Below, in pieces: positions 43,532 through 62,473 of a stretch of DNA of 64,000 nt (positions are counted from its first letter, which is position 1; each line of letters opens with the position of its first letter). The position numbers and the translations under genes are program-made. The notes beneath the pieces were generated by a model. That model worked only from the letters and a program-made list of their open reading frames with translations. It made no database searches and was not told the DNA's origin. Origin of the DNA: Luteibacter sp. 9135 (GTDB lineage Bacteria; Pseudomonadota; Gammaproteobacteria; Xanthomonadales; Rhodanobacteraceae). The stretch covers positions 2,473,501-2,537,500 of the forward strand of contig NZ_JQNB01000001.1 in the NCBI RefSeq assembly GCF_000745005.1. Reading direction: 5' to 3'.

Positions 43532-43771
43532 AAGAGCCGACGGGTAGCCCCCTCGGTGCCACGCCTGCGGCGACCCGCTAGGGAAGGGCCGCTCCGCGGC
43601 CGTATGTTTATTGCCCTTCGGGCACGGGTCGGGCTTCGAACGGAGGTTTCCGATTCGACCTCCTGTCTCAGCGGAAACGGCCGGCCGTCCTGGCCGGCCC
43701 CCTGCGGGCTTTTTCCGTTCGAAGCCCTCGCCTGCGGCTACCGGCCCCGAGGGGGCTACCCGCCGGCTCTT
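43532..43771 (+). repeat. structured unit A-left
   Basis: Closed by AAGAGCCGACGGGTAGCCCC (43532 on) pairing with GGGGCTACCCGCCGGCTCTT (ending 43771), 24 of 25 positions. Inside are GGCCGC/GCGGCC, TGCCC-TTCG-GGCA, GGGCTTCGAACGGA (43631-43644) with TCCGTTCGAAGCCC (43714-43727), GTTTCCG (43646-43652) with CGGAAAC (43672-43678), and GGCCGGCC-GTCCT-GGCCGGCC (43679-43699). Confidence 0.8.
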
Positions 43772-43860
43772 CCTCAAACTGAGGTGGGATGTTGGGCGAG
43801 CAGCGAGGGGTGGTGAACGAGTAGCGGGAGGGGTACGGCGTCGCCGCTTTGTTGGCTTTT

Positions 43861-43882
43861 CGCCCACATCGTGGGCTCCTAC
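43861..43882 (-). repeat. REP palindrome in core of composite A
   Basis: On the minus strand GTAGGAGCCCAC, GAT, GTGGGCG. Compared with the other REPs both arms changed together (CGCAC to CCCAC and GTGCG to GTGGG), keeping the stem. Confidence 0.65.
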
Positions 43883-43934
43883 CTCGGGGGGTAGGGCAGG
43901 TGTTGGAATACCCGACGCATGATCTATCGGCTGG

Positions 43935-43959
43935 GTAGGAGCGCACGCACGTGCGCGAA
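43935..43959 (+). repeat. REP palindrome in core of composite A
   Basis: GTAGGAGCGCACGCACGTGCGCGA, same family as 28307, opposed to the REP at 43861 and so forming a REPIN-like pair. Confidence 0.7.
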
Positions 43960-44075
43960 CCCTCGACGTACCTAAGGCGACGGATGCCATGCGCAACAGG
44001 CAAGCGAGCGGTCCCAGCAACGAAGCGAAACCCAGCTCTGCTCTGCGCTCGACCCCAACCCACCTCAGCTTGAGG

Positions 44076-44311
44076 AAGAGCCGGCGGGTGCCCTCGGGGC
44101 CGGTAGCCGCAGGCGAGGACTTCGAACGGACAAGGCCCGAAGGGGGCCGGCCAGGACGGCCGGCCATTTTCGCTGAGACAGGAGGTCGAATCGAAAATCC
44201 CCGTTCGAAGCCCGACCCGGCCCGAAGGGCAATAAATAAACGGCCGCGGAGCGGCCTTTCCCTAGCGGGTCGCCGCAGGCGTGGCCACGAGGGTGGCACC
44301 CGCCGGCTCTT
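44076..44311 (-). repeat. structured unit A-right
   Basis: Inverted copy of A-left with all stems. The inner stem reads ATTTTCG (44166-44172) with CGAAAAT (44192-44198) instead of GTTTCCG/CGGAAAC, so two base pairs changed on both sides. CTTCGAACGG (44120-44129) pairs with CCGTTCGAAG (44201-44210). Confidence 0.8.
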
Positions 44312-44364
44312 GCTCCGCGACGCCAAGGCTCGAGCCCCAACGCGATGCCGAAGGCGAGCCCGCC

Positions 44365-44823
44365 TCAACCACCCGGAGACGGCAGCTGCGCACCCGAGCC
44401 GCGGCGCTTTGCGCTCTTCTTCATCGATTCGAATGTCGCCTTGTCGATCGTCTGCACGGACTGGATCTGGCACGGTGGCTCGTTGCGGCGAAGGATTTTC
44501 TCATCGATGCCGCCGCAGATACGCATCTCGCCCATGGCCTTGTCGCTGTTGGACGACTTGAAGCGGATGCCGCCGCCCAGGTCCATCCGCGGGCAGTCCG
44601 CGCTGGTCTTCACGACGAAATGGTTCGGTCCGTTGCGCACCGCCACCGTTCGCGTATCGACCACGGCCCATTCGTTGATGCGGTCGGTGCGCAGGCAATC
44701 GTTGAAGGGTAGTTCGTTGCGGGCCTGGGGGGAGGGGCCGGGACGGGGCATGTTGTCCTGCGCGTGCGCGATGGACGCGCCGGCGAGCAGGAGGGCGGCG
44801 CTGAACAGGATTCGGGCAGTCAT
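44365..44823 (-). CDS. exported DUF6491-like protein
   Basis: A 152-residue protein with signal peptide MTARILFSAALLLAGASIAHA. The mature part has CLRTDRINEWAVVDTRTVAV, HFVVKTSADCPRMD and CGGIDEKILRRNEPPCQIQS. Spaced Cys and the RI..W start are typical of DUF6491, small periplasmic proteins of unknown role common in Xanthomonadales. The C-terminus is basic (MKKSAKRRGSG). The start at 44823 is set by the signal peptide. Composite A ends 5 bases after its stop. Confidence 0.7.
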   Translation of the reverse strand: MTARILFSAALLLAGASIAHAQDNMPRPGPSPQARNELPFNDCLRTDRINEWAVVDTRTVAVRNGPNHFVVKTSADCPRMDLGGGIRFKSSNSDKAMGEMRICGGIDEKILRRNEPPCQIQSVQTIDKATFESMKKSAKRRGSGAQLPSPGG

Positions 44824-45006
44824 GACGGGGTCCTCCGGGAGGAATAGAGATGTTAAGCCGGGATCGGCCCATGGGCGAGATTGACAGGGGCCACGGTGCA
44901 CCTTTCGTTAAGGGCGTGGAGAATGCCACTCACGTTCGTTGAACGTTTCCTCGGCCATCCTTTCCGTCATGACTGACGCTATTAAGGCCGCACAGGAGGC
45001 CAGCGC

Positions 45007-46275
45007 ATGACGGTCCGCCCGCTTGGCCTCGACCCTACCCCCTCGGCCCCTGCGGACCTTGTCACGCGCTTCCTCGGCGTGCGTCGTCGCAGCGCTGAAC
45101 TGGCCTCGCGGCTGCGTCCGGAGGACACCGTCATCCAGTCGATGCCGGATGCCAGCCCGACCAAGTGGCACCTCGCCCACACCACATGGTTCTTCGAGCA
45201 CTTCGTTCTCGGTCCCAGCGAAGGCTATGTGTCGGCTAACCCGGAGTGGCACTTCCTGTTCAATTCGTACTACCAGTCGGTAGGCCCGATGCACGCGCGC
45301 CCCAGTCGGGGAATGATTACGCGGCCGGACTTCGCCGAAGTGCTGGATTACCGGCGGCGTGTGGACGACGCCGTGGCCGAGCGCCTCCTGCGCGGCGACG
45401 ATCCGGCGCTGGCTGTCGTGATCGAACTGGGCTGCCAGCATGAGCAACAGCATCAGGAATTGCTCCTCACCGATATCAAGCACGCGTTTGCGCAGAATCC
45501 GTTGGAGCCGGCGTTTACCACCGAGGCGCCGCGTGCGCTCTCCGTGGCCGCGCCTGTCTTGCGCTATGTGCCGTTCGACGAAGGCGTGGTGGAGGTGGGT
45601 CATGCCGGTGACGGTTTCCACTTCGATAACGAAGGGCCTCGCCATCGCACCTGGCGTCAGGCGGGATCGCTCGCCAATCGCCCGGTGACGAACGCCGAGT
45701 TCCTTGCGTTCGTGCAGGATGGCGGCTATCGCGACCCGTTGCTGTGGTTGTCGGATGGCTGGGCCACCGTGCGGGCCGAGGGCTGGCAGCGTCCGTTTTA
45801 CTGGGACGAGGCGTGCGAGACGGAGTTCACCTTGCAGGGCCGCCGGGCCATCGATCCGCATGCGCCGGTGTGTCATGTCAGCTATTTCGAGGCCGACGCG
45901 TTCGCGCGCTGGGCCGGCGCCCGGCTGCCGACGGAGGTCGAATGGGAAACCATGGCCACGTCACTGCCGGTTCGCGGCAATTTCCAGGACAACGGTTTGT
46001 TCCACCCACGTGCGTCGTCGTTCGAAACCGACCTGGGTCAGATGTATGGCGACGTTTGGGAATGGACGATGAGCCCATATGTCAGTTATCCGGGGTTTCG
46101 TCCGCTGGACGGTGCGCTGGGGGAATACAACGGCAAGTTCATGAACGGTCAGTGGATACTCCGCGGGGGCTCGTGCGCGACGCCCTCCGATCATATTCGT
46201 GCCACCTACCGTAATTTTTTTCCTCCCCATGCGCGCTGGCAGTTCACGGGGATACGACTGGGAAACGATCGATGA
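45007..46275 (+). CDS. egtB: ergothioneine sulfoxide synthase EgtB
   Basis: A 422-residue non-heme iron enzyme joining trimethylhistidine (hercynine) to a thiol with oxygen. The N-terminal DinB-like domain supplies the iron histidines: KWHLAHTTWFFEHFVLGP and HEQQHQELLLTDIKHAF. The C-terminal FGE-sulfatase domain has GNFQDNGLFHPRA, MYGDVWEWTMSPYVSY and WILRGGSCATPSDHIRATYR. It overlaps egtD by 4 bases. No egtC or egtE lies nearby, so the C-S lyase must be elsewhere. Whether the thiol is cysteine or gamma-glutamylcysteine cannot be decided here. Confidence 0.94.
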   Translation: MTVRPLGLDPTPSAPADLVTRFLGVRRRSAELASRLRPEDTVIQSMPDASPTKWHLAHTTWFFEHFVLGPSEGYVSANPEWHFLFNSYYQSVGPMHARPSRGMITRPDFAEVLDYRRRVDDAVAERLLRGDDPALAVVIELGCQHEQQHQELLLTDIKHAFAQNPLEPAFTTEAPRALSVAAPVLRYVPFDEGVVEVGHAGDGFHFDNEGPRHRTWRQAGSLANRPVTNAEFLAFVQDGGYRDPLLWLSDGWATVRAEGWQRPFYWDEACETEFTLQGRRAIDPHAPVCHVSYFEADAFARWAGARLPTEVEWETMATSLPVRGNFQDNGLFHPRASSFETDLGQMYGDVWEWTMSPYVSYPGFRPLDGALGEYNGKFMNGQWILRGGSCATPSDHIRATYRNFFPPHARWQFTGIRLGNDR

Positions 46276-47255
46276 GTGCTCAACCCAAAGACATCCGTGT
46301 CGACGACCGCCATCCGGATGTCGAGGACACCCTCGAGACCGTCCGGCGCGGCCTCGGGGCCAAGATCAAGAAGCTGCCCTCGCGCCTGTTCTACGACGAG
46401 CGCGGTTCGGCGCTGTTCGAGGCCATCTGCGAGCAGCCGGAGTACTACCTCACGCGCACCGAGATACGCATCATGCGCGATCATGCGGCCGACATTGCCG
46501 ACGTGATCGGGCCTGACGTGCGCCTGGTCGAATACGGCAGCGGCAGCGGGATCAAGACGCGGATGCTGCTGGAGCATCTGGTCACGCCCGTGGCCTATGT
46601 GCCGGTGGAGATATCGCGCACGGCGCTGATGGAAAGCGTCGCCGAATTGTCCACGCGTTTCCCGGACGTGCCCATGCAGCCGGTGTGCGCCGACTTCACC
46701 CAGCCGTTGCGGCTGCCGGTGGCCTCGCGCTCCCCGCGGCGTACGGTGATCTACTTCCCGGGTTCGACCATCGGCAATTTCGAGGCGAAGGATGCGGTGA
46801 AGATTCTCCGCCAGATGCGCGCCGAGATGAGCGACGGCGGCGGGGTGCTGATCGGCGTGGACCTTAAGAAGGACGCCTCGGAGATCGAGGCGGCGTATAA
46901 CGACGCCGCCGGTGTCACGCGCGATTTCACGCTCAACATGCTGGTGCGGCTGAATCGCGAGATCGGCACCGATTTCGATCTCGATGCGTTCCGCCACCGC
47001 GCACGCTACAACGTGCTGGCCGGCCGGATTGAGACCTCGCTGGTCAGCACCCGCCACCAGGTGGTGCATGTGGGTAGCGACGCCTTCACCTTCCGCGAGG
47101 ACGAAGCAATGCAGGTGGAGTACAGCTGCAAGTATTCGCTGGACGACTTCGCGCAGATGGCGAACAAAGCCGGTTTGTCGGTGGAGCAGGTCTGGATGGA
47201 CGAGGATCGCCGTTTCAGCGTGCAGTACCTGGTGCGGACGACGCCTGTCGCCTGA
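46272..47255 (+). CDS. egtD: L-histidine N-alpha-methyltransferase EgtD
   Basis: A 327-residue SAM-dependent enzyme that trimethylates histidine to hercynine, the first step of ergothioneine synthesis. It has the EgtD start LPSRLFYDERGSALFEAICE, the acceptor-site QPEYYLTRTEI, the SAM loop LVEYGSGSGIKTR and VIYFPGSTIGNFE. The end (VWMDEDRRFSVQYL) is typical. It is translated with egtB through an ATGA overlap. A REPIN lies between it and the convergent mfd gene. Confidence 0.95.
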   Translation: MSAQPKDIRVDDRHPDVEDTLETVRRGLGAKIKKLPSRLFYDERGSALFEAICEQPEYYLTRTEIRIMRDHAADIADVIGPDVRLVEYGSGSGIKTRMLLEHLVTPVAYVPVEISRTALMESVAELSTRFPDVPMQPVCADFTQPLRLPVASRSPRRTVIYFPGSTIGNFEAKDAVKILRQMRAEMSDGGGVLIGVDLKKDASEIEAAYNDAAGVTRDFTLNMLVRLNREIGTDFDLDAFRHRARYNVLAGRIETSLVSTRHQVVHVGSDAFTFREDEAMQVEYSCKYSLDDFAQMANKAGLSVEQVWMDEDRRFSVQYLVRTTPVA

Positions 47256-47286
47256 CCCGTTCGCCCGCCGCCTTACATCGGCGGTT

Positions 47287-47393
47287 GTAGGAGCGCACGC
47301 TGTGCGCGACATCTTTTCACTGCATTCTTCGAGTTGGCGCGCCAGCTCGAAGGGTCGGCTTTGAAAGATGTCGCGCACATCGTGCGCTCCTAC
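47287..47393. repeat. REPIN (two opposed REPs) between egtD and mfd
   Basis: GTAGGAGCGCACGCTGTGCGCGAC (from 47287) and its inverted partner ending GTGCGCTCCTAC (47370-47393) enclose a spacer that itself pairs: GATG/CATC-like ends, AAAGA/TCTTT and TTCGAG..CTCGAA. It lies between two convergent gene ends, the normal niche for REPs. Confidence 0.75.
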
Positions 47394-47437
47394 ATGTGTC
47401 GCCTGGAAGATGCGTGCATGTGTTGTGCGGGGGGGCA

Positions 47438-50400
47438 TCACCCCGGCCGGCGGGCACCCAGGGAGACCAGCAGGTCTTGCGCGGTGCGGATGCGTTCGGC
47501 GCTACCAGATAGCTCGAGGATTACCCGGAGCTTGTCCTGGCCGTCCATCTTGAAGATGCGCGGCTGTTGCTGGATCAGCTTGATCAGGGCCATCGGGTCG
47601 ATGTCGGGCTTGTCGCGGAAGGTGATGCGTCCACCGCTGGCGCCGAAATCGACCTTGCGGATGCCGAGCGGGGTGGCCATGAGCTTCAGTTGCGCAACGG
47701 CGAACAGGCACTTGGTCTGTTCGGGCAGCAGGCCGAAACGGTCGATCATCTCGACCTGCAGCTCGCGCAGGCCGTGCTCGTCGCGCGCGCTGGCGATGCG
47801 CTTGTACAACGTCAGTCGCGTGTGGACATCGGGCAGGTAGTCTCCGGGGATCAGCGCGGGCAGGTGCAGTTCCACCTCGGTTTCGTGCTCGGAGGTGAGG
47901 TCGAAATCCGGCACCTTGCCCGACTTCAGCGCGCGCACCGCGCGGTCCAGCAGCTCGGTATACAGCCCGAAGCCGATCTCCTGGATCTGTCCGGACTGTT
48001 CCTCGCCCAGCATCTCGCCCGCACCGCGGATCTCTAGGTCGTGGGTGGCGAGCGTGAAGCCGGCCCCCAGTTCCTCCAGCGAGGCCAGCGCTTCCAGGCG
48101 CTTCTCCGCATCGGCGGTCATCGCCTTGCGGTCGGGCACGATGAGGTAGGCATAGGCGCGGTGATGCGAGCGACCCACGCGTCCGCGCAACTGGTGCAGC
48201 TGGGCCAGGCCGAAGCGGTCGGCACGGTTCACCACAATGGTGTTGGCGGTGGGGATGTCGATGCCCGATTCGATGATGGTGGTGGACACCAGCACGTTGA
48301 ACCGCTGCCGGTGGAAATCGGCCATCACCTGTTCCAGCTCGCGCTCGGGCATCTGGCCGTGGGCGACGCGGATGCGTGCCTCGGGCACCAGTTCGCCCAG
48401 CTCGCGTGAGATGCGCTCGATCGACTCCACTTCGTTGTGCAGGAAGTAGACCTGGCCACCGCGGGCCAGCTCGCGCTGGATGGCTTCACGGATCAGCGCG
48501 GGTTGATAGGTGGAAATCAGCGTGCGCACGGCCGTGCGATGGGCCGGTGGCGTGGCGATGATCGACAGGTCGCGCAGGCCGCTCATCGCCATGTTCAGCG
48601 TGCGCGGGATCGGCGTGGCGGTGAGGGTCAGCAGGTCCACCTCGGCGCGCAGCTTCTTCAGTTGTTCCTTCTGGCGCACGCCGAAACGCTGTTCCTCGTC
48701 GACGATGACCAGGCCCAGGTCCTTGAAGCGGATGTCCGGGCCGAGCAGCTTGTGCGTACCGACGATGACGTCGATTTGGCCGTCGGCCAGCCGTTGCAAC
48801 GCCCCGTCCACTTCCTTTTTCGACTTGAAGCGGGAGATGACGTCGACGCGTACCGGCCAGTCCGCGAAGCGGTCGGCGAAGTTGCGGTAATGCTGCTGGG
48901 CGAGCAGGGTGGTCGGCACCAGCACGGCCACCTGCTTGCCCGCGGTGGCCGCGGCGAACGCGGCGCGCAGGGCGACCTCGGTCTTGCCAAAACCCACGTC
49001 GCCGCAGACCACGCGATCCATGGCGCGCGGCGCGGCCAGATCGACGATCACCGCATCGATCGCCGCCTGCTGGTCCGGGGTTTCCTCGAACGGGAAGGTG
49101 GCCGCGAATTCCTCGATCATCGGGCGGTCGACGGACAGCGACTGCCCCTGGCGCGCCTCGCGCTGGGCGTAGATGCCCAGCAACTCGGCGGCCACGTCGC
49201 GGACTTTTTCCGCAGCCTTCTTGCGCGCGCGCTCCCAGGCGTCGCCGCCGAGCGAGTGCAGGGGTGCCAGTTCCGGCGCGGTGCCGGTATAGCGGCTGAC
49301 CAGACCGAGCTGGGCCACCGGCACGTAGAGCTTGTCGCCCTTGGCGTATTCGATGGTGAGGAACTCGCCGGGCATGTCGCCCACGTCCAGGGACACCAGC
49401 CCCTGGTAACGGCCGACACCGTGATCGATGTGGACAATGGGCGAGCCGATGGACAGCTCGGTCAGGTCCTTGATGATGCTTTCGGGATCGCGCGCGGCAC
49501 CGGCGCGACGCTTGCGATCGGTGCGCACGCGTTCGCCGAACAACTCGCGCTCGGTGAGCACGGTGAAGGCCGGCTTCGTGATCGCGAAACCCTGTTCCAG
49601 CGACGCGACGGTGATGGCGAGCTTCTCGTCGCGCGCGAGGAAATCCTTCCAGCTGTCGAGGTTGACCGGTTTCAGGCCGGCACCGGCCAGTTGCTCGATC
49701 AGCGCCTCGCGGCGGCCGGCGGAATCCGCCGCGATCAGCACGCTGCCCTTGTAGCTGGACAGGAAATGCCGCAGCGCCGCGCCCGGTTCGTCGCCCTTGC
49801 GGTTCAGCGGTACGTCCGGTGCCGGCTGCGTGCCCAGGTCCACCGCGTGCTCGTGGCCGGCGGGCACCACGTCGATCCGCACCTGCTTGTTGAGGCGCTC
49901 GCGCAGTTGCTCCGGCGGCAGGTAGATCTCCGCCGGCGGCAGCACCGGGCGCTCGATATCGTGCGCGCGCTGGTCGTAGCGCTCGGCGGTCTGCGTCCAG
50001 AACTGCTCCGCGGCGTCCAGCGTGCCCTCGCCGAGGACGAACATCGCATCGCCCGCGATGTAGTCGAACAGGGTTTCGGTCGCGCCGAAAAACAACGGCA
50101 GGTAGTACTCGATGCCGCCGGGCGTCACGCCTTCCTTCATGTCCTGGTAGAGCGGACAGCGACGGATGTCGATGGGAAAGCGTTCGCGCAGGTTGGCGCG
50201 GAAGGTCTTCGCCGCGTCTTCGGTCAGCGGGAACTCGCGTGCGGGCAGCAGGTCGACGCTGTCCACCTGGTGGGTGGAGCGTTGGGTTTCGGTGTCGAAA
50301 CTGCGGATGGACTCGATCTCGTCGTCGAACAGCTCCACGCGGTAGGGCTCGTCGGCGCCCATCGCGTAGATGTCGATGAGCGCGCCGCGCACGGCGAAGT

Positions 50401-50887
50401 CACCCGGTTCGGCCACCTGCGGCACGTTGCGGTAGCCGGCGGCCTCCAGCCGACGCTGCTCCGCGCCCATGTCGAGCTTCTGGCCCTTGCGCAGCACCAG
50501 TCCCGATCCGGTGATGTGGGCGCGCGGCGCGATGCGCTGCATCAGCGTGGCCACCGGCACCACCAGCACACCGCGCCGGGTGGTGGGTAGGCGATAGAGC
50601 GTGGCGATACGCTGGGAAACCACTTCCGGGTGCGGACTGAAGACGTCGTAGGGCAGGGTTTCCCAGTCCGGGAAATGCAGCACCGGCAGTTCACCGGCGA
50701 ACACCGCCAGTTCGCTTTCGAGGTTGTCGGCACTGCGGGTATCGCGGGTGACCACGACCAGTACGCCCTCGTGCGCGCGTGCCGCCTCGGCGACTTCGAG
50801 TGCCCACGCCGAGCCATGGGGCGTGGCCCAGTAGCGGCGGGTCTTGGCGGTGGCGGGGAGCGACGGGCGGGGGAGCACTAGAGGCAT
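47438..50887 (-). CDS. mfd: transcription-repair coupling factor Mfd
   Basis: A 1149-residue ATPase that removes stalled RNA polymerase and recruits UvrA. The N-terminal UvrB-like homology modules are at 1-350, the RNAP-interacting CarD-like domain at about 470-545 (LSIGSPIVHIDHGVGRYQGL), and the translocase at 580-950 with GDVGFGKTEVALRAAF, DEEQRFG and TATPIPRTL. The TRCF C-terminal domain ends the protein. The start at 50887 is chosen over an open extension to 51013 that runs into the previous gene. It is last in a four-gene leftward row. Confidence 0.97.
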   Translation of the reverse strand: MPLVLPRPSLPATAKTRRYWATPHGSAWALEVAEAARAHEGVLVVVTRDTRSADNLESELAVFAGELPVLHFPDWETLPYDVFSPHPEVVSQRIATLYRLPTTRRGVLVVPVATLMQRIAPRAHITGSGLVLRKGQKLDMGAEQRRLEAAGYRNVPQVAEPGDFAVRGALIDIYAMGADEPYRVELFDDEIESIRSFDTETQRSTHQVDSVDLLPAREFPLTEDAAKTFRANLRERFPIDIRRCPLYQDMKEGVTPGGIEYYLPLFFGATETLFDYIAGDAMFVLGEGTLDAAEQFWTQTAERYDQRAHDIERPVLPPAEIYLPPEQLRERLNKQVRIDVVPAGHEHAVDLGTQPAPDVPLNRKGDEPGAALRHFLSSYKGSVLIAADSAGRREALIEQLAGAGLKPVNLDSWKDFLARDEKLAITVASLEQGFAITKPAFTVLTERELFGERVRTDRKRRAGAARDPESIIKDLTELSIGSPIVHIDHGVGRYQGLVSLDVGDMPGEFLTIEYAKGDKLYVPVAQLGLVSRYTGTAPELAPLHSLGGDAWERARKKAAEKVRDVAAELLGIYAQREARQGQSLSVDRPMIEEFAATFPFEETPDQQAAIDAVIVDLAAPRAMDRVVCGDVGFGKTEVALRAAFAAATAGKQVAVLVPTTLLAQQHYRNFADRFADWPVRVDVISRFKSKKEVDGALQRLADGQIDVIVGTHKLLGPDIRFKDLGLVIVDEEQRFGVRQKEQLKKLRAEVDLLTLTATPIPRTLNMAMSGLRDLSIIATPPAHRTAVRTLISTYQPALIREAIQRELARGGQVYFLHNEVESIERISRELGELVPEARIRVAHGQMPERELEQVMADFHRQRFNVLVSTTIIESGIDIPTANTIVVNRADRFGLAQLHQLRGRVGRSHHRAYAYLIVPDRKAMTADAEKRLEALASLEELGAGFTLATHDLEIRGAGEMLGEEQSGQIQEIGFGLYTELLDRAVRALKSGKVPDFDLTSEHETEVELHLPALIPGDYLPDVHTRLTLYKRIASARDEHGLRELQVEMIDRFGLLPEQTKCLFAVAQLKLMATPLGIRKVDFGASGGRITFRDKPDIDPMALIKLIQQQPRIFKMDGQDKLRVILELSGSAERIRTAQDLLVSLGARRPG

Positions 50888-50972
50888 GGAGTCGGCTTGG
50901 CAGCTTGCGGACAAGCCGACGATTGTACTACCTGCCCGTGAAGGGCCAGCGGTGCCGGCCCCTCGGACGGGG

Positions 50973-51881: not shown

Positions 51882-51915
51882 GTGATCCCTGTTCCCGATG
51901 GGTAATCGAAAGATC

Positions 51916-52422: not shown

Positions 52423-52450
52423 GGGTCGGCTCCTGGCGTGTGCCACCAAT

Positions 52451-53388: not shown

Positions 53389-53496
53389 GTAGGAGCGCAC
53401 GATGTGCGCGAGTGCTTTTCGCACCAGTCCCCCACCTCTAAGCGCCAGCGCCGAGGTTGTCGCGAAAAGATGTCGCGCACATGCGTGCGCTCCTAC
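53389..53496. repeat. REPIN upstream of rlmJ
   Basis: GTAGGAGCGCACGATGTGCGCGA (53389-53411) opposed to a REP ending GTGCGCTCCTAC (53472-53496), with a 60-base spacer. It lies between rlmJ's start and the 3' end of the NAD(P)-binding gene, so the rlmJ promoter must lie inside or beside it. Confidence 0.75.
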
Positions 53497-53497
53497 A

Positions 53498-53521
53498 GTT
53501 GCGGTTGCGGTTGCGGTTGCG
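53498..53521 (+). repeat. hexanucleotide tandem repeat (GTTGCG)4
   Basis: Four perfect GTTGCG units plus a degenerate fifth, directly next to the REPIN and 18 bases from the end of the next gene. A slippage-prone microsatellite in non-coding DNA. Confidence 0.8.
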
Positions 53522-53538
53522 GTCGCACCTCACACCCC

Positions 53539-54174: not shown

Positions 54175-54255
54175 GGAAAAACCTCGGGTTGGTCAGGTCA
54201 GGCGCACAGCATGCGCCTCGCACCGTTACGGAAAAACCGCCATCTGCGCGATTCA

Positions 54256-54276
54256 TCGTAAACTCCTGCTTTACGA
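54256..54276. promoter_or_regulatory. LysR-type operator palindrome
   Basis: TCGTAAA (54256-54262) and TTTACGA (54270-54276) form a perfect 7-base inverted repeat with a 7-base spacer, fitting the T-N11-A LysR box. It lies between the divergent oxidoreductase and LysR genes, so the regulator likely controls both. Confidence 0.7.
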
Positions 54277-54280
54277 TCCC

Positions 54281-54310
54281 AGCCCAGCCCAGCCCAGCCC
54301 AGCCCAGCCC
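54281..54310 (+). repeat. pentanucleotide tandem repeat abutting a start codon
   Basis: Six perfect AGCCC units (preceded by CCC) end exactly at the ATG of the LysR gene. They occupy the whole place of the ribosome site, and there is no Shine-Dalgarno sequence between the operator and the ATG. Confidence 0.85.
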
Positions 54311-55201
54311 ATGGCCATCGACATCAACCTCAACCGTCTCGGCGTCTTCGTCGCCCTGGTTCGTGCCGGCTCGTTCACGGCCGCCGCCGAGCAACTGGGC
54401 ACGACCAAGGCGATGGTCAGCCAGCACCTGGCCCGCCTGGAGGCCGAGCTTGGCGTGCAGCTGCTGGTGCGCAGCACCCGCCGCATGGCCCTGACCGACG
54501 CGGGCGAGCGTTTCCACGAGGACTGCGCGCGCGTGCTGGCGGAGGCGGAAGCCGCGATCGCCCGCCTGGGCGAATGTCGCGACACCCCGATGGGCACGCT
54601 GCGCATCAGCGCCGCGAACGACCACGGCATCAACGTGGTGGCGCCGGCGCTGGCCGCCTATGCCGAGCGCTACCCGCAGGTCCGTGTGGAACTGGTGGTT
54701 ACCGACACCGTGACCGACCTGATCGCCGAGCGCTTCGACCTGGCCATCCGCCTGGGCTGGCTGCGCGACTCCAGCCTGCGCGCGACGAAGCTGTCGAGTT
54801 TCCGGCAATGCCTGGTGGCGTCCCCGGCCTATCTCGCCCGCCACGGCATCCCCGCGGTGCCCGAGGATCTGTCCACGCATCGCTGGATCGCGGTGAGCGT
54901 GCTCGCCTCGCCGACCCGCTGGGTGTTCAAGGATCCGAACGCCGCGGACTGCGTGGTGCAGACCCGCGCCGTCGCCAGCGCGAACAGCGCCACGGCGGCG
55001 TACCGCTTCGTGCTCGAAGGCCTGGGCCTCTCGGTGCTGCCCGATTACATCGTGGAGGCCGAACTGAAAGCGGGCGGCCTGGTGGCCCTGCTGCCGGGCT
55101 ACACCTTGCCCGAGGGCGGGGTGCACGCCGTTTATCCGGGCAACCAACCGCCGGTGAAGGTGCGGGCGTTCATCGACCTGCTCAAGGAACGTCTGGCCTG
55201 A
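54311..55201 (+). CDS. LysR-family transcriptional regulator
   Basis: A 296-residue regulator with winged helix at 5-64: LNRLGVFVALVRAGSFTAAA and LGTTKAMVSQHLARLEAELG. The effector domain is of the CrgA/DmlR branch (PMGTLRISAANDHGINVVAP, VLEGLGLSVLPDYIV, KVRAFIDLLKERL). It is divergent from the oxidoreductase. The translation start is unusual: six AGCCC repeats stand immediately before the ATG in place of a ribosome site, so copy number may affect expression. Confidence 0.9.
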   Translation: MAIDINLNRLGVFVALVRAGSFTAAAEQLGTTKAMVSQHLARLEAELGVQLLVRSTRRMALTDAGERFHEDCARVLAEAEAAIARLGECRDTPMGTLRISAANDHGINVVAPALAAYAERYPQVRVELVVTDTVTDLIAERFDLAIRLGWLRDSSLRATKLSSFRQCLVASPAYLARHGIPAVPEDLSTHRWIAVSVLASPTRWVFKDPNAADCVVQTRAVASANSATAAYRFVLEGLGLSVLPDYIVEAELKAGGLVALLPGYTLPEGGVHAVYPGNQPPVKVRAFIDLLKERLA

Positions 55202-55231
55202 ACGCGCCGCACCGCGTGGCGCGCCTGCCGC

Positions 55232-55765
55232 TTACGTGACTTGGCTACCCAGCCGAAGGTTGATCCCCAGCTTGGCCGCCAGCTGGCGCATGTTCTCGTC
55301 ATCGCGCGAGGACGTGATCCAGCCGGCGTAGACGTCGTCGTCTTCCGCTTCGCGGGCCCACAACGTGTAACCGTACTGGTTGAGCTGGTCGAAGGCGCGG
55401 CTGAAGATCTCCGGACCGTCGATGTCCTCGTGGAAGTCGTCCTCGCTGGGGTCGCCGTCCCAGTCGATGGTGACGTCGCTCCAGCGCGAGACCAGCTCGG
55501 CGATCGCATCCACCAGCGTGCGGGTATCGTCGGCGTCCACTTCGAAACTGGACTGCCAGTCGGTGACCTGCGCCACGACACGGATGGGATCGTCGTCGCC
55601 CTGGTCCTCGATTTCCGCGCGGTAGACGGTGAACTGGCGAAGCGCGTTTTCCTCGTCGCCCGGGTTGATCAGCAGCAACAGCTGCCACACCTGCGACTCG
55701 ACCGTCTCCTCGCCTTCTTCGTCGTCGAACTCGCGTTCTTCAGGGTAATCGTCGTCGTAGCTCAT
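55232..55765 (-). CDS. DUF6630-like acidic protein
   Basis: A 177-residue acidic soluble protein. It opens with an Asp/Glu run (MSYDDDYPEEREFDDEEGEE), then VWQLLLLINPGDEENALRQF, LVDAIAELVSRWSDVTIDW and FDQLNQYGYTLWAREAEDDD. This agrees with DUF6630, single-domain proteins of unknown role. The start at 55765 is chosen as the most compact; longer frames run to 56035 without protein-like sequence. No signal peptide is seen. Confidence 0.7.
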   Translation of the reverse strand: MSYDDDYPEEREFDDEEGEETVESQVWQLLLLINPGDEENALRQFTVYRAEIEDQGDDDPIRVVAQVTDWQSSFEVDADDTRTLVDAIAELVSRWSDVTIDWDGDPSEDDFHEDIDGPEIFSRAFDQLNQYGYTLWAREAEDDDVYAGWITSSRDDENMRQLAAKLGINLRLGSQVT

Positions 55766-56199
55766 GGGGAAGGGCCTGTGGAGAACTGGCGAAATCATCG
55801 CACGATGCGCGTCAAAGCGTCGCAGTCCTTGAAATGGACGTCCAATCGACCGGGTTGACATCGGGTCGCTGCGGTGCAACAAATGGCACCTGGCCCTATC
55901 CAGGCGACACCCGCTCACCGTGAACGCACACACCTGCCGCGCACCTGCCTTTCCGTCGATGTCAGCGGCCACGCCGCGATGTCCGGTCGGCGCTGCGTGT
56001 CGTTCGTGTCGACGGGCCTGAGCGACTGACGCCACGCGTTGCGCGTGTCCTGCGGGTCGGCCGCAGGTAACGATATTTCGATTCTTTTCCGGCCATGCCG
56101 GCTGCCGCTGCCTTCGCCGCGGTGTCGTGCCGCCGTTCCCGGCTATCCGGCGCCTCAGGTGCCGATCCTTTCATCGTTTTCCAGGGGAAAGTCCCACCC
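55766..56199. other. non-coding stretch before the TonB receptor gene
   Basis: About 430 bases without a gene between two divergent genes. Only the ribosome site AGGGGAAA (56183-56190) before the receptor's ATG is evident. An ATG-initiated frame from 56095 merely extends the receptor. No Fur-like box or riboswitch pattern is recognisable by eye. Confidence 0.4.
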
Positions 56200-58608
56200 A
56201 TGTCGCCTTCGACCCATCGTCGTCACCCGTTGTCCCTCGCGCTGGCCCTCGTGCTCGGCGCCACGTCCGCCCATGCCCAGGAGGCCGCCCCGGCGGACAA
56301 AGCGGAATCGGCAAAACCGAGCCAGCTGGATACCGTGATCGTCACCGGCACCCGCAGCACCGAGCGCACCGTTTCCAGCTCGTTGCAGGCGATCGACGTG
56401 ATCACCCCGCAGCAGCTGCAGCAGACCGGCGCCACCCAGCTCACGGCCGCCCTGGCGCGGCTGGTGCCGTCGCTCAATTTTCCGCAGCCGACCACGATCA
56501 GCGGTGCCGAAGTGGCCCGTCCCGTGACCTTGCGCGGTCTCAGCCCGGACCAGGTGCTGGTGCTGATCGACGGCAAGCGCCAGCATGCCGGTGCCTTCCT
56601 CAACCTGGGCGGTGCGATCGGACGCGGTTCGAACCCCGTGGACCTCAACGCCATCCCCGTCTCGGCGGTGGAGCGCATCGAGGTGCTGCGTGACGGGCAG
56701 TCGGCGCGCTACGGCTCCGATGCCATCGGTGGCGTGATCAACGTGATCCTGAAGAAGTCCGGCACGGGCGGGCAGGTGACCGCCAAGTTCGGCGGCTACG
56801 ACGCGGGCGATGGCCTCCAGCGCCAGCTGAGCGCGGACACCGGATTCAAGCTGGGCGACAAGGGCTCGATCCATGTCGCCATCGACACGCAGAACAACGA
56901 CGGCACCAACCGCGCCGGCCTGGATCGCACGGCCGCCTCGGTCGGCACCACCTACGGGAAGAAGGTGTACTGGCTGGGCGAACCCGCCGTGCAGTCGAAC
57001 AAGGTGTCGCTGGTGGGACAGTACGCCTTCAGCAAGGCGGCCGAGGTGTATGTCGAAGCCCTTTACCGGCGCGATCGCGACGAGACCGCCAGCCTCTATC
57101 GCCACCGTGGCGAATCGACCAACGTCGCGTCGATCTATCCGCAGGGCTACCTGCCGGTGAACGTGCCCATCGTCAACGACACCACGCTGACCGCCGGCGT
57201 GCGTGGCGAATTCGACAGCGGCTGGCATTACGACGCGTCGGTCAGCCATGGGTCGAACGAATACGACCAGCGCAGCCATGCGATCAACGCGGACTACTAC
57301 CGCGCGTTCGGCAGCACGCCGTTCTTCATCCAGGGCGCCGATTACAAGACCAACCAGCAGGTGGCCAACCTCGACATCGGCAAGGAATTCAGCCCGTCGT
57401 GGCTGCCCAACCCGATCAGCGTGTCGTTCGGTGCGGAATACCTGCGCCAGGGCTACAAGGTGAAGCCGGGCGACGCCGTGTCGCAGTACGGCGCCAACGG
57501 CGGTATTACCGGCGACCTGCAAGGCAACTGGCAGCGCCACGACACGTCCGTGTACGTGGACCTGGACACCAACCTGACCGACCGCTTCGCGGTGTCGCTG
57601 GCCGGCCGCCATGAGCAGTACAGCGACTTCGGCGGTACCACGTCCGGTGCGTTGTCCGGTCGCTTCGACTTCACCCCGCGCGTGGCCCTGCGCGGCAGCG
57701 TAGGCACCGGGTTCCGCGCGCCCACGCTGGTGCAGCAGCACTACGCGGATATTTCCTCGCAGTTGCAAGACCTCGGCCAGGGCCAGGTGCTGGTGCAGTC
57801 GGGCACGTTCCCCGTGGATTCCGCGGCGGCCGGCCTGCTCGGCGCGGTGAAACTCAAGCCGGAGAAGTCGCGCAGCGCCACGCTGGGCCTGGTGCTGGAA
57901 CCGCTGGACGGCTGGAACGTCAGTGCGGATGCCTACTGGATCAAGATCGCCAACCGGATCAACCTGTCGTCCAACATTCCGGTCAACACGCCGGCCGTCA
58001 ACGCCTACCTGGCCGCCAACGGCGTGGACGCGAATTACCAGTCGATCCGTTATTTCACCAATGCGGTGAACACACGCACGCGCGGGCTCGACATCGTCAG
58101 CCAGTACGGTTTCGATTTTGCCAACGGCGATCGCCTCAACACCACCGTGGGCTGGGCATACAACGAGAACAAGGTGACGCGGGTGAAGCCGAACCCGGCG
58201 ATCCTCGACGAACTGGGGGTGGCGGTGCAGCGTGTGGAGCGCCGCGAGCGACTGGGGTTGCTGGGCGATACCAATCCGCGGACCAAGCTCGATGTCGGCT
58301 TCGACTACCTGCACAGCCGCTGGGCGGCACACGCCAACGTGCAGCGCTACGGCAGCTACACCGTCTACAGCAACAGCGGCCCGGCGCTGGACCAGGACTT
58401 CGACCATCGCTGGACGCTCGACGTATCGGCCGACTACAACCTCGACCGCTGGACGTTCACCGCGGGCGCGGACAACGCGTTCAATGCGCGGCCGGAGCAG
58501 GTGAAGTACGCCAACTCCACCAGCGGCAACTTCAAGTACAGCCTGTTTTCGCCGTTGAGCTGGAACGGCCGTTACTACTACGCCAGCGTGACCTACCGGT
58601 GGGATTGA
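56200..58608 (+). CDS. TonB-dependent outer-membrane receptor
   Basis: An 802-residue receptor. The signal peptide ends ALVLGATSAHAQ. The plug (about 35-165) includes DTVIVTGTR (TonB box region), RGLSPDQVLVLIDGKRQ and ERIEVLRDGQSARYGSDAIG. The rest is a 22-strand barrel ending YYYASVTYRWD with a terminal aromatic as barrel proteins do. The ATG at 56200 is fixed by the signal peptide and AGGGGAAA. It overlaps the M28 peptidase start by 1 base, so the likely ligand is a peptide or peptide-linked compound rather than iron-siderophore; this is inference. Confidence 0.92.
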   Translation: MSPSTHRRHPLSLALALVLGATSAHAQEAAPADKAESAKPSQLDTVIVTGTRSTERTVSSSLQAIDVITPQQLQQTGATQLTAALARLVPSLNFPQPTTISGAEVARPVTLRGLSPDQVLVLIDGKRQHAGAFLNLGGAIGRGSNPVDLNAIPVSAVERIEVLRDGQSARYGSDAIGGVINVILKKSGTGGQVTAKFGGYDAGDGLQRQLSADTGFKLGDKGSIHVAIDTQNNDGTNRAGLDRTAASVGTTYGKKVYWLGEPAVQSNKVSLVGQYAFSKAAEVYVEALYRRDRDETASLYRHRGESTNVASIYPQGYLPVNVPIVNDTTLTAGVRGEFDSGWHYDASVSHGSNEYDQRSHAINADYYRAFGSTPFFIQGADYKTNQQVANLDIGKEFSPSWLPNPISVSFGAEYLRQGYKVKPGDAVSQYGANGGITGDLQGNWQRHDTSVYVDLDTNLTDRFAVSLAGRHEQYSDFGGTTSGALSGRFDFTPRVALRGSVGTGFRAPTLVQQHYADISSQLQDLGQGQVLVQSGTFPVDSAAAGLLGAVKLKPEKSRSATLGLVLEPLDGWNVSADAYWIKIANRINLSSNIPVNTPAVNAYLAANGVDANYQSIRYFTNAVNTRTRGLDIVSQYGFDFANGDRLNTTVGWAYNENKVTRVKPNPAILDELGVAVQRVERRERLGLLGDTNPRTKLDVGFDYLHSRWAAHANVQRYGSYTVYSNSGPALDQDFDHRWTLDVSADYNLDRWTFTAGADNAFNARPEQVKYANSTSGNFKYSLFSPLSWNGRYYYASVTYRWD

Positions 58609-60839
58609 TGTCGATGCGTGCCTTTCTGCTTGCCTTGTCGCTGACCGTCACCGCGGCGGTCGCCACGCCGGCCGCGGACGCACCGCTGGTCGGTTTCACA
58701 CCCGCATCGTCCGTTGCCGAACGCGAGACGGAGCGTCGCGTGGACGCCGCTCTGGCTGGCGCCGACCTGGACGGCTGGCTGCGCCGACTCACCTCGGCGC
58801 CCAACCACGTCGGCTCGCCGCACAACGACGAGAACGCCCGCTTCATCGCCGACAGCCTGCGTCAGTGGGGCTGGGACGTACAGGTGGAGTCCACCCGCGT
58901 GCTCGTCGCCTATCCCACGGTGCAGAAGCTTGCCCTGCTGGACGGCGACGGTTACGCGGCGGACTTCACCGAGCCGGCGGTGGCCGGCGATGCCGACACC
59001 GCGCGGCGTGACGGCGTGCTGCCGGGCATGGAGGCGTACAGTCCCGACGGCGCGGTGGACGCGCCGATGATCTACGTCAACGAGGGACTGGCGAAGGACT
59101 ATGCCGACCTGGCCCGCACGGGCCAGTCCGTCGTGGGCAAGGTGGTGCTGGTGAAGTCCAGCGGCGCCGGTCGCTGGGTGAAGCCGCGGCTTGCCCAGCA
59201 GCATGGCGCGGTGGGCGTGGTCATCTATTCCGATCCCCAGGCCGACGGCTTCACCAAGGGCGAGGTCTATCCCACCGGTGCATGGCGTACGCCGCGCACC
59301 GTGCAGCGGGGCACGCTGGGCATCGACAGCGCGCTGGATGCCGCCAGCGCGAAGACGATCCAGGCGGCCAGGCATACCGACGACCTGTCGATCCCGGTGG
59401 TGACCATCGGCTACGGTGATGCCGAGCATTTCCTGCGCGCGCTGGGCGGTCGTGTCGTGCCGAACCGCTGGCAGGGTGGACTGCCGCTCACGTATCACAT
59501 CGGTGGCGAGGCACGTGTCCATCTGGAAGTCCGTTCGCCGTGGGAGTGGCGCACGCTGCATAACGTCATCGCCACACTCCGCGGCAGCCGCTACCCGGAC
59601 GAGTGGGTGATCCGTGGCGTGCACCACGACGCCTGGGTCTACGGGGCCTGGGACCCGCTGGCGGGCACCACGGCGCTGCTGGCCGAAGCGAAAGCCATCG
59701 GTGAGCTGGCCAAGGCGGGGGTTCGACCCAAGCGCACCCTGGTCTTCGCCAGCTGGGACGGCGAGGAACTGGGCATCCTGGGCTCGCGCGCGTGGACGGA
59801 ACGCCATGCTGCGGAACTCGCCAAAAAGGCGGTGTTCTATCTCAACAACGACACCACCGGCCGCGGCCTGCTGGCCGCCCAGGGCGATCCGTCGATCGGT
59901 GCACTGGTGGACGGTGTCGCCGCCGACCTGCGCGATCCGGAGACGGGAGCGAGCGTGCAGGCACGCCGTCTTGCCAAGCGCGCCGTGCACGCCGACGAGA
60001 AGGGCAGGGAGGTACCTGCCGGCCCCGTGGTCCTGCCTCGGCTGGGCACCGGTTCCGATTACCTGGCCTTCGCCCATCGATTCGGCGTGCCCTCGCTGCA
60101 TGTTCGTTACGGTTACGACCGCGACGGCGACGAGGAAAGCGTGCCGGTCTACCACTCGCTCTACGACACGTATGCGCACTACCAGCGCTTCGGCGACCCG
60201 GGCCTGGCCTATGTCGGTCTGCTGGCGAAAACCAATGCCCGCCTGGCCTTGCGTGTCGCCAATGCCGACGTGCTGCCCTGGCGATTCACCGTCTTCGCGC
60301 AAGCGCTGGGTCGCGATATCGATCGGGTGCAGGCCGGCGCGACGAAAGCCCACGACGAAGCGCAGCGGCACAACGCGCTGGTGGCGGACGGGTCGTACCG
60401 CCTGGCGGAGGTGGCCTACCGGCAGTTGCAGCCGCCTTCGCGGGTCGATGACGCATGGCAGCCGGTGGACTTGGACGCCTTGCGTGCGGCGCAGCGTGAC
60501 TTGCTGGCGGCAGCGGCCGCTTACGATGCGGCGGCCGACGCCAGCGCGGACATCCCGCCCGCGGACGCCATCCGGATCAATCGTCACCTGCGCGAGGTTG
60601 GCGACGCCTACCTGCAGACGGAGGGTCTGCCGCAGCGGCGCGCGTATCGCCACCTGTTGCAGGCACCCGGTCGCAAGGAGGGTGAAGATGTCGCCCCCCT
60701 GCCGGGAATCGGCGATGCGATCGACGCTAAAGCGTGGGACGAGGCACGCGACGAGACGGCGTTGACCGTGGAGGCGACCCGCAAGGCGACCCAGGCCTTG
60801 CAGCGAGCGACCGTCTTGTTGGCGGGGCGGAAACCGTAG
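58608..60839 (+). CDS. exported M28-family metallopeptidase (PSMA-like)
   Basis: A 743-residue protein with signal peptide MSMRAFLLALSLTVTAAVAT, cleaved near ATPA. A protease-associated domain lies at about 150-290. The di-zinc peptidase domain (about 310-560) has VHHDAWVYGAWDPLAGTTAL, WDGEELGILGSRAW, GTGSDYLAFAHRFG and YHSLYDTYAHY, the ligand set of M28B (glutamate carboxypeptidase II type). A helical dimerisation domain ends it. It starts inside the receptor's stop codon, so capture and periplasmic cleavage of peptides are coupled. Confidence 0.92.
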   Translation: MSMRAFLLALSLTVTAAVATPAADAPLVGFTPASSVAERETERRVDAALAGADLDGWLRRLTSAPNHVGSPHNDENARFIADSLRQWGWDVQVESTRVLVAYPTVQKLALLDGDGYAADFTEPAVAGDADTARRDGVLPGMEAYSPDGAVDAPMIYVNEGLAKDYADLARTGQSVVGKVVLVKSSGAGRWVKPRLAQQHGAVGVVIYSDPQADGFTKGEVYPTGAWRTPRTVQRGTLGIDSALDAASAKTIQAARHTDDLSIPVVTIGYGDAEHFLRALGGRVVPNRWQGGLPLTYHIGGEARVHLEVRSPWEWRTLHNVIATLRGSRYPDEWVIRGVHHDAWVYGAWDPLAGTTALLAEAKAIGELAKAGVRPKRTLVFASWDGEELGILGSRAWTERHAAELAKKAVFYLNNDTTGRGLLAAQGDPSIGALVDGVAADLRDPETGASVQARRLAKRAVHADEKGREVPAGPVVLPRLGTGSDYLAFAHRFGVPSLHVRYGYDRDGDEESVPVYHSLYDTYAHYQRFGDPGLAYVGLLAKTNARLALRVANADVLPWRFTVFAQALGRDIDRVQAGATKAHDEAQRHNALVADGSYRLAEVAYRQLQPPSRVDDAWQPVDLDALRAAQRDLLAAAAAYDAAADASADIPPADAIRINRHLREVGDAYLQTEGLPQRRAYRHLLQAPGRKEGEDVAPLPGIGDAIDAKAWDEARDETALTVEATRKATQALQRATVLLAGRKP

Positions 60840-60933
60840 TGCCACGTCGCCGGAGGGGCGGCAGTCGCGCCCCTCCGGTGCATCGGGCATGCACTCGGCT
60901 ATAGTCCGCCGCACTCTCAAGGCGGATGCAGGC

Positions 60934-61617
60934 ATGAACGACACCTCGCAAAAACACGGGTCGCATCGCAAGAAGGTGTGGGCACCCATCCGTTACGCGC
61001 ATGCCCGCCCGCGCCTGCTGGTCGGTGCGGCCGCCGCCGTGGTCGCTGCGGTGGTGCTGGAATTCAGCGGGCTGCCGCGTTCGCTGCCGTTGCTGATCGG
61101 TTTCGATATCGGTGCCGTCGTGTACTTCGTGCTGCTGTTGCGCATCTTCGTCGGCGCCAACCCGGCCACGATGCGCCGGCAGGCCTCGCAGCAGGACACC
61201 GGGCGCTGGACCACCCTGCTCAGTGGCGTCGTGCTGTCCGCCGTGGTGCTGGGCGCGGTCACCACCGAGCTGAACTCCAGCGACAAGGGCGGCGTGATGG
61301 CGATCGCCGTGGCGGCAAGCACGATCATCCTGGCGTGGACGTTCATGAACACGCTGTTCTCGCTGCACTATGCGCACGGTTACTACGGCGAATTCGGCGA
61401 GCCGCACAAGGGCCTGGACTTTCCCGGCGACGAAGAACCCGATTACTGGGATTTCGCTTATTTCGCCTTCACCATCGGCATGACCTTCCAGGTCTCCGAC
61501 GTGCAGATCACCACGCGCTACCTGCGCCGTGTGGGCCTGATGCACAGTGCTATCGCTTTTTTCTTCAACGTTTTCATCATCGCGATCAGCGTGAACGTGG
61601 CGGCGGGCAAGGCCTGA
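60934..61617 (+). CDS. DUF1345 membrane protein
   Basis: A 227-residue inner-membrane protein with five or six hydrophobic segments, typical of DUF1345. Landmarks are LLIGFDIGAVVYFVLLLRIF, MNTLFSLHYAHGYYG and GLDFPGDEEPDYWDFAYFAF then FTIGMTFQVSDVQITTRYLR. The ATG at 60934 is preferred over one 15 codons earlier because the upstream part lacks a ribosome site. The function is unknown. Composite B begins 25 bases after its stop. Confidence 0.85.
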   Translation: MNDTSQKHGSHRKKVWAPIRYAHARPRLLVGAAAAVVAAVVLEFSGLPRSLPLLIGFDIGAVVYFVLLLRIFVGANPATMRRQASQQDTGRWTTLLSGVVLSAVVLGAVTTELNSSDKGGVMAIAVAASTIILAWTFMNTLFSLHYAHGYYGEFGEPHKGLDFPGDEEPDYWDFAYFAFTIGMTFQVSDVQITTRYLRRVGLMHSAIAFFFNVFIIAISVNVAAGKA

Positions 61618-61699
61618 GTTTTGGGATTGGACGTTTGGTTCGGGCTCGCCTTCGGCATCGCGTTGGGGCTTGGAGCTTGGAGCGTCGCGGCGTTCGAGC

Positions 61700-61938
61700 A
61701 AGAGCCGGCGGGTAGCCCCTCGGTGCCACGCCTGCTGCGACCCGCTAAGGAAGGGCCGCTGGCGCGGCCGTCTATCTATTGCCCTACGGGCCGGGTCGGG
61801 CTTCGAACGGAGGTTTCCGATTCGACCTCCTGTCTCAGCGGAAACGGCCGGCCGTCCTGGCCGGCCCCCTTCGGGCTTTTTCCGTTCGAATCCCTCGCCT
61901 GCGGCTACCGGCCCCGAGGGGGCTACCCGCCGGCTCTT
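61700..61938 (+). repeat. structured unit B-left
   Basis: Closed by AAGAGCCGGCGGGTAGCCCC (from 61700) and its complement ending 61938, with one bulge. The inner stems (GGGCTTCGAACGGA class, GTTTCCG/CGGAAAC, GGCCGGCC hairpin) match A-left almost base for base. Confidence 0.8.
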
Positions 61939-62026
61939 GTCGACACTGAGGTGGGTTGTTGGGCGAGCAGCGAGTGGCGGTGAACGAGCAGAGGTAGGGT
62001 ACGGCGTCATCGCTTTGTTGGCTTTT

Positions 62027-62048
62027 CGCGCACATCGTGCGCTCCTAC
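62027..62048 (-). repeat. REP palindrome in core of composite B
   Basis: Minus-strand GTAGGAGCGCAC, GAT, GTGCGCG; the canonical form of the family. Confidence 0.7.
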
Positions 62049-62097
62049 ACAGGGTAGGGCAGGCTGTGGAATCTTCGACGCGTGATCCGCTGGCTGT

Positions 62098-62121
62098 GTA
62101 GGAGCGCACGCATGTGCGCGA
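62098..62121 (+). repeat. REP palindrome in core of composite B
   Basis: GTAGGAGCGCACGCATGTGCGCGA, opposed to the REP at 62027. Confidence 0.7.
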
Positions 62122-62235
62122 ACCCTCAATGTATCTAAGGCGACCGATGCCATGCGCATCAGGCAGGCGAGCGTTCCCAGCAACGAAGCGAAGCCCAGCT
62201 CTTCGCTCTCCCCACACGCAACCTCAGCGCTGGAA

Positions 62236-62473
62236 AGAGCCGGCGGGTGCCACCCTCGTGGCCGGTAGCCGCAGGCGAGGGATTCGCACAGATCAGGCCC
62301 GAAGGGGGCCGGCCCGGATGGCCGGCCGTTTTCGCGAGACAGGGATGTCGAGTCGAAAACCCCTGTGCGAAGCCCGACCCGGCCCGACGGGCAATCAATA
62401 CATGGCCGCGCAGCGGCTTTCATTGACGGGTCGCCGCAGGCGTGGCCACGAGGGTGGCACCCGCCGGCTCTTG
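62236..62473 (-). repeat. structured unit B-right
   Basis: Its closing stem is perfect over 29 bases: AAGAGCCGGCGGGTGCCACC at 62236 on with the complement ending 62473. This sequence differs from unit A-left on both strands. The second stem is TTCGCACAG (62284-62292) with CTGTGCGAA (62364-62372) where others have TTCGAACGG/CCGTTCGAA; the inner stem is GTTTTCG/CGAAAAC. Confidence 0.8.

Follow-up and report, generated by a model that had tools for sequence, protein, structure and literature searches.

The 64,000-nt stretch of the Luteibacter sp. 9135 genome that was analysed here (contig NZ_JQNB01000001.1, positions 2,473,501 to 2,537,500; referred to as the window) contains four structured repeat units (units 1–4), which are members of a family of dispersed repeats. 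A preliminary description of this DNA had reported one nested fold common to all four units at these positions, and the fold was found as described. The inner stem is paired throughout (GTTTCCG/CGGAAAC in units 1 and 3, ATTTTCG/CGAAAAT in unit 2, GTTTTCG/CGAAAAC in unit 4), and the second stem reads TTCGAACGG/CCGTTCGAA in units 1–3 and TTCGCACAG/CTGTGCGAA in unit 4. The closing stem, whose two sides had been said to change together, is completely matched in units 1 and 4, but bases are lost from one side in units 2 and 3. The four units are not the separate witnesses for which they had been taken. A single composite element of about 0.8 kb is present here twice, and its inverted-pair arrangement had been missed. 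Inverted-repeat analysis of both loci revealed a unit A, a spacer of about 290 nt and an inverted unit B, with arms that are complementary to 83–93% within each element (inverted repeats I2, I3, I5 and I6). Both outer inverted ends are present at element 1 and only the left one at element 2. At both loci the spacer is an imperfect palindrome with two head-to-head GTAGGAGC hairpins, which resemble repetitive extragenic palindromes (REPs). The features are listed in Table 1. REPs of the GTAGGAGC type form two more inverted pairs outside both elements (window positions 47287–47394 and 53389–53488).

Table 1. Features of the two composite elements in the window (positions refer to the window; I numbers denote inverted repeats).
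Feature	Position	Strand	Basis
Composite element 1: outer ends 43490–43528 / 44323–44361, unit A, spacer, inverted unit B	43490..44361		I2, I5, I10, I12
Neighbours of element 1: convergent genes, one ending at 43392 (+), the other at 44365 (-)			
Unit 1 (A type)	43532..43771	-	GGA loops and wobble pairs on the minus strand
Unit 1, hairpin P3, loop GACAGGAGGTC	43646..43678	-	sequence and fold
Unit 1, hairpin P4, loop CCAGGACGG	43679..43699	-	sequence and fold
Spacer 1, head-to-head pair of GTAGGAGC hairpins of REP type: minus near 43874, plus at 43935	43772..44075		
Unit 2 (B type), GGA-loop strand plus, closing stem short of bases on one side	44076..44311	+	
Unit 2, hairpin P4, GGCCGGCC-AGGAC-GGCCGGCC	44145..44165	+	
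Unit 2, hairpin P3, ATTTTCG/CGAAAAT, loop GACAGGAGGTC	44166..44198	+	sequence and fold
Composite element 2, left outer end 61641–61680, no matching right outer end seen	61641..62474		I3, I6, I8, I9
Unit 3 (A type), GGA-loop strand minus, closing stem short of one base on one side	61700..61938	-	
Unit 3, hairpins P3 (61813–61845) and P4 (61846–61866)	61813..61866	-	sequence and fold
Spacer 2, REP-like hairpins: minus near 62040, plus at 62098	61939..62235		
Unit 4 (B type), GGA-loop strand plus	62236..62473	+	
Unit 4, hairpins P4 (62307–62327, loop CCCGGATGG) and P3 (62328–62360, loop GACAGGGATGTC)	62307..62360	+	sequence and fold

Taken alone, the four units offer only the contrasts between A and B and between locus 1 and locus 2, so the test of the fold needed relatives. 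In the own genome (G000; a single contig of 4,485,268 bases) at least 30 loci with at least 50 full-length units were found by DNA searches in which the best 40 of 93 and then the best 40 of 101 candidates were scored; 30 of the 31 stretches examined (29 by place and two from the window) carry at least one unit. The end pattern, with up to 2 mismatches, occurred 124 times compared to 47 times for its reversed control, and there may be further or degenerate copies. Used as DNA query, a unit matched 19 of 61 genomes when no more than 12 candidates were scored in each, namely the own one, 17 of 22 relatives from the genus, 1 of 14 from other genera of the family and none of 24 at the level of the order.

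Covariance models, a search that the preliminary description had proposed, gave matches in at least 117 of the 197 genomes searched within the family, from 21 of 26 genera (core model R1, 29 sequences, 20 candidates scored per genome; the E-values of all these model searches are rough). When 30 genomes chosen for earlier matches were searched with 137 candidates each, all 30 matched again, at up to 60 places. Model R2 was discarded, as a shift in the alignment had lost helix P4. Model R3, built from 39 cores of which all but one come from other genera, matched at least 73 of the 250 genomes searched within the order, from 28 of 78 genera, and, phylum-wide, at least 7 of 249 genomes, four within the order and three weak ones outside (36–43 bits), with 16 candidates scored per genome in both searches. 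The units hence belong to a repeat family that extends across the order and whose dispersed copies, mostly intergenic, consist of a structured unit paired in inverted orientation. In the weak matches outside the order (loci L248, L253 and L249; genomes G459 and G455), the stem TTTCAGGGG/CCCCTGAAA encloses two hairpins that carry CAUGGAUG and CAAGGAUG- or CAGGGAUG-like loops; one genome has 14 such places and the other 2. These repeats are possibly an analogous or related family in a genome that is Pseudomonas-like by its REP type.

The folding of units 1–4 lies far beyond chance (z −9.8, −6.6, −8.8 and −10.4, respectively, against 200 dinucleotide shuffles each). RNAalifold predicted from 25 representatives a closing stem P1, a stem P2 and the hairpins P5, P4 and P3, in the order of the strand that carries the GGA loops described below, with a small inner stem inside P3. 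The covariation check that had been proposed was carried out with 102 aligned full-length units, 50 of them from the own genome (pairwise identity down to 54%, median 76%), in an R-scape-like test (G-statistic with average product correction, Fitch tree null, 40 simulations, 266 columns). At E ≤ 0.05, 10 of 34,716 column pairs were significant, and 8 of these belong to the fold, which has 68 pairs (they lie in P1, P2, P3 and the inner stem of P3); this count is biased towards the fold, as the latter was derived from the same alignment. Beside these, pair 135–152 is placed to extend P3, and pair 59–98 is unexplained. In alignment A1 (29 representatives), double changes were observed in 24 of 33 core pairs, and paired cells reached 96.9%, whereas shuffles gave 84.8% and slid versions no more than 56%. 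None of 500 shuffles came as high in the double changes, so that compensation exceeds expectation; altogether four of five measures were reached by none of the 500 and the fifth (further pair types) by 8. Alignment A4 (40 cores from 17 genera), which has 9 sequences in common with A1, showed covariation in 16 of 21 predicted pairs. As judged from these comparisons, selection on a single-stranded structure of the units, for which the preliminary description had argued, is supported by the wider sample of 102 diverged units with covarying stems.

A selected single strand should tolerate mismatches that leave a wobble on that strand. On the strand printed for unit 1 in the preliminary description, a Watson-Crick pair was replaced by A·C in about 55 cases and by G·T in about 20 (p 4e-5; averaged over 20 reconstructions, without seven doubtful pairs). 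Terminal branches alone gave about 42 and 14 such changes, and a single reconstruction with all 68 pairs gave 59 and 22. The raw cells reverse this order (205 G·T, 86 A·C), but 163 of the 205 G·T cells stem from the column pairs 125–196 and 110–212, which are probably not real pairs. In alignment A3 (39 rows) the complement strand showed 19 G·U and 1 A·C cells, a contrast that loses weight as the rows were picked by a model of the same strand. In 83% of the 102 units the complement also folds more stably, but in genome G032 not on average. As paired elements carry the unit in both orientations, mutation alone should act symmetrically. The G·U bias therefore makes the complement of unit 1 the likelier functional strand, and the strand chosen earlier for units 1 and 3 the less likely one.

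On the complement strand the two adjacent hairpins P3 and P4 have GGA in their loops, mostly as CANGGA(U/C/A)G (CAGGAUG, CAUGGAUG, CACGGAUG, CAGGGAUG, CCAGGACGG and similar forms). Per unit, 2.29 hairpins with GGA in the apical loop were counted compared to 0.19 on the opposite strand (102 units), and 3.16 compared to 0.08 in other genera (38 units), where two to five GGA hairpins per unit occur if 60-nt flanks are included, some of them outside the core. GGA is commoner on this strand than on the opposite one in 139 of 140 units, a count that has to be discounted since all units have a common ancestor and are not 139 independent witnesses. By parsimony, the GGA columns of the P4 loop changed 0, 0 and 1 times and the neighbouring columns 10 and 14 times; in the P3 loop the values are 2, 1 and 1 versus 14 and 7 (the latter column mostly gap). 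The motif is nearly fixed across freely differing stems. It is present in the P3 loop of 40 of 40 rows of A4 and 26 of 29 rows of A1, and in the P4 loop of 38 of 40 and 25 of 29 rows, respectively. All 63 rows with GGA in both loops, out of 69 rows of A1 and A4, show a spacing between P4 and P3 of 26–29 nt.

Repeats of CsrB carry CAGGA(U/A/C)G in hairpin loops, in vitro selection (SELEX) yielded RUACARGGAUGU, ANGGAN loops are described, and one CsrA dimer bridges sites 10–63 nt apart with an optimum above 18 nt (PMC7652899). The GGA loops of P3 and P4 and their spacing match published CsrA/RsmA sites, and the units have the two or more GGA motifs in hairpin loops which are required of a small RNA sequestering CsrA/RsmA. 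The own genome encodes one csrA of canonical look (single PF02599 match). The units may well act as RsmA-binding RNA of REP-like dispersed repeats, a reading in which we place about as much trust as doubt. The conserved single-stranded form would then be RNA, and the two ANGGA-type hairpins of each unit would lie at a distance that one CsrA/RsmA dimer can bridge. The dispersed copies together would sequester RsmA in the manner of CsrB or RsmZ, or, alternatively, the repeats might tether RsmA to the messages carrying them. In a transcript of the whole element the two arms pair with each other; a unit would therefore have to be made or folded alone, either as a single-unit transcript or during transcription. 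Transcription, RsmA binding and titration or tethering are what we infer from these likenesses. Should the units bind RsmA, what passes for genomic debris would belong to the Csr/Rsm circuit as a part spread over the genome, a global regulator would be reset as copies are gained or lost, and palindromic repeats would be tied to a known RNA-binding protein via an explicit motif that is open to testing. That selfish or domesticated repeats form a genome-wide sponge, in which tens of copies per cell each display paired CsrB-like hairpins and whose copy number and position determine the level of free RsmA across the Xanthomonadales, is rather unlikely in our opinion.

Several observations weigh against RsmA binding. 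Transcription of the units is itself a premise, and in a simple scan no sigma-70-like promoter was found in either window element. The transcript of the whole of element 1 folds as an arm duplex (−754 kcal/mol), which hides the loops. Three units of G032 in A1 are without GGA in both loops, and L104 (G001) and L213 are without it in P4. Some loops of the units are tight; binding to a 4-nt GGA loop was weak (PMC3791407), and very stable stems may disfavour CsrA (PMC7652899). In RsmU of Xanthomonas, RsmA still bound after all four GGA motifs had been replaced (PMC7694677). The G·U bias, too, is compatible with single-stranded DNA (ssDNA).

The main rival is a DNA-level explanation, which is possible, if on the whole doubtful: the units might be the ends or body of a mobile palindrome that resembles REP doublets forming hairpins (REPINs) or miniature inverted-repeat transposable elements (MITEs). 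It would be moved as a folded single strand by a REP-associated tyrosine transposase (RAYT; Y1 HUH) or another enzyme, and the stems would covary because the enzyme reads the ssDNA fold. Inverted pairing is in line with this. Among 16 standard loci of the own genome that were typed, 15 have one A-type and one B-type unit and one has an A unit and an end-cut unit of no readable type. In 65 loci of Luteibacter and G032, the units lie + then − in 47, ++− in 2 and −− in 1 (a unit in two pieces), never − then +, and 15 have a single unit, although the stretches are short and a partner may fall outside some. In the sense of the GGA strand, paired units point outward, as they do in 13 of 13 two-unit loci of a further set; three listed pairs of G048, from another family, point inward, and the orientation of the pairs hence varies within the order. 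Moreover, the genome's single Y1_Tnp match (L123, G000:C1:1697503-1697778) has three GTAGGAGCGCAC REPs nearby, of the type found as hairpins in the element spacers, and REPINs of Pseudomonas fluorescens likewise show compensatory changes and inverted doublets (PMC3116915). Owing to the RAYT-type REP hairpins in the spacer, a REPIN-like, ssDNA-based spread of the Luteibacter copies is plausible. No REP rule that we found, however, accounts for GGA in two loops of one strand with freer neighbours, or for the additional GGA hairpins outside the core in other genera. Furthermore, among 12 two-unit loci of other genera only L215 has GTAGGAGC in its spacer, and therefore REPs are not a constant part.

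The occupation of sites bears on movement as well. At site 2 of the window, the upstream gene has homologs in 13 relatives (51–89% identity), and no unit was found in the 12 that could be judged (L153, which ends with its contig, was left out), a pattern expected of a mobile element. In the nearest relative (L148), the orthologous intergenic region is present without element 2, but too diverged for reading a target-site duplication. At site 1, a homolog of the neighbouring gene is present in 21 relatives. Both element ends flank a run of N on the matching side in L178 (G011), a unit-like remnant without core is left in L164 (G008), and no unit was found in the remaining 19. Other loci of the own genome have sites that agree with those of relatives on both flanks, namely L033 with L093, and L084 with L097 and L103. 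Some copies are therefore old and others not shared between species, and the shared sites imply a slow turnover. This speaks against recent movement without favouring either RNA or ssDNA.

It is improbable that the repeats are 3'-end elements, i.e. bidirectional terminators or mRNA stabilisers between convergent genes comparable to bacterial interspersed mosaic elements (BIMEs). According to a simple GC-frame caller of open reading frames (ORFs), 15 of 30 own loci lie between convergent genes, as such a function would suggest, but the other half do not (10 tandem, 4 divergent, 1 unresolved). Terminator-like hairpins exceed expectation in element 1 (4 versus 0.9), but hardly in element 2 (1 versus 0.7), and neither the GGA loops and their spacing nor a covarying fold of 240 nt is predicted by this function. 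Long inverted repeats are prone to template switching and gene conversion between arms; that the units are neutral palindromes kept perfect in this way, without a selected structure, agrees with the 83–93% complementary arms but is very improbable and already disfavoured, as it should yield neither a strand-specific wobble bias nor conservation of GGA in the loops, and short stems covary across genera.

Some copies are not strictly intergenic, since ORF overlaps of 32–33 nt occur at L035, L044, L048 and L052. An ORF runs over the element end in L044, L046 and L048, and ORFs inside the element were called only in L032, L033 and L050. A protein-coding element was rejected, as the ORFs over units look like mechanical overlaps in a GC-rich stretch. 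Long spacers contain insertion sequence genes of the IS110 type in L033 and of the rve/IS3 type in L031 and L032; the ORF of L050 is nearly the same as that of L033. Insertion sequences are thus found in several spacers, as though this part of the element attracted insertions or could take them without harm. Spacers are also long in L034, L039 and L053. Short tandem repeats, (GGTCTCGC)n and (CCAAGGCC)n, adjoin element ends (right flanks of L043, L046 and L031). Elements read in other genera are closed near the unit ends by a palindrome of the type GGTTACTTTCTCTTG-n6-CAAGAGAAAGTGAC (L209, L213, L208, L212). In L213 this palindrome is 86–91% identical to stretches in four plasmid-collection records (Aeromonas, Pseudoalteromonas, Ilyobacter), where no feature is annotated; nothing else of L213 matched plasmids and nothing matched phages, and L246 and L248 had no match in the plasmid collection. 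A plasmid or phage origin of element 1 was likewise rejected, as neither collection gave a match.

The preliminary description knew of no described family with this sequence, and the units (window and element 1) matched no Rfam family at the gathering threshold, CsrB, CsrC and RsmX/Y/Z included; weak matches (E 0.05 and worse) fell below every cut-off, and a radC match in the spacer (22.3 bits, cut-off 40) was taken as chance. A partial literature search of titles and abstract openings, with few subscription journals, retrieved no CsrA-binding repeat family and no Luteibacter repeats, and no description of this family or its strand-specific signature was found there. For repeats of Beggiatoaceae, CsrA was considered and judged unlikely for want of GGA (PMC4679880).

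With REPINs, BIMEs and GTAG-tagged REPs with their RAYT, the units have in common many extragenic copies, inverted doublets, hairpins in ssDNA or mRNA and compensatory changes (PMC3116915, PMC3733652), and the GTAGGAGC hairpins of the Luteibacter spacers are a further likeness to GTAG-tagged REPs. As dispersed extragenic palindromes in inverted doublets they resemble REPs and REPINs, but they differ in a multi-helix fold of about 240 nt compared to the 20–40 bp of a REP (PMC3733652), in GGA loops on one strand, and in the lack of a visible GTAG or CGTC tag on the unit, as GTAG hairpins are seen only in the spacer. GTAG or CGTC dimers also occur inside longer palindromes of other bacteria; the sequences quoted for these look unrelated to our elements, and GGA loops are not described in the accessible text (PMC3733652). 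CsrB/CsrC, RsmX/Y/Z, RsmU of Xanthomonas (PMC7694677) and CsrR1/R2 of Alcanivorax (PMC9788540) resemble the units in several GGA motifs, many of them in loops. These Csr/Rsm RNAs are individual transcribed RNAs, whereas the units would be putative RNAs of a repeat that is dispersed in dozens of copies, arranged as inverted pairs.

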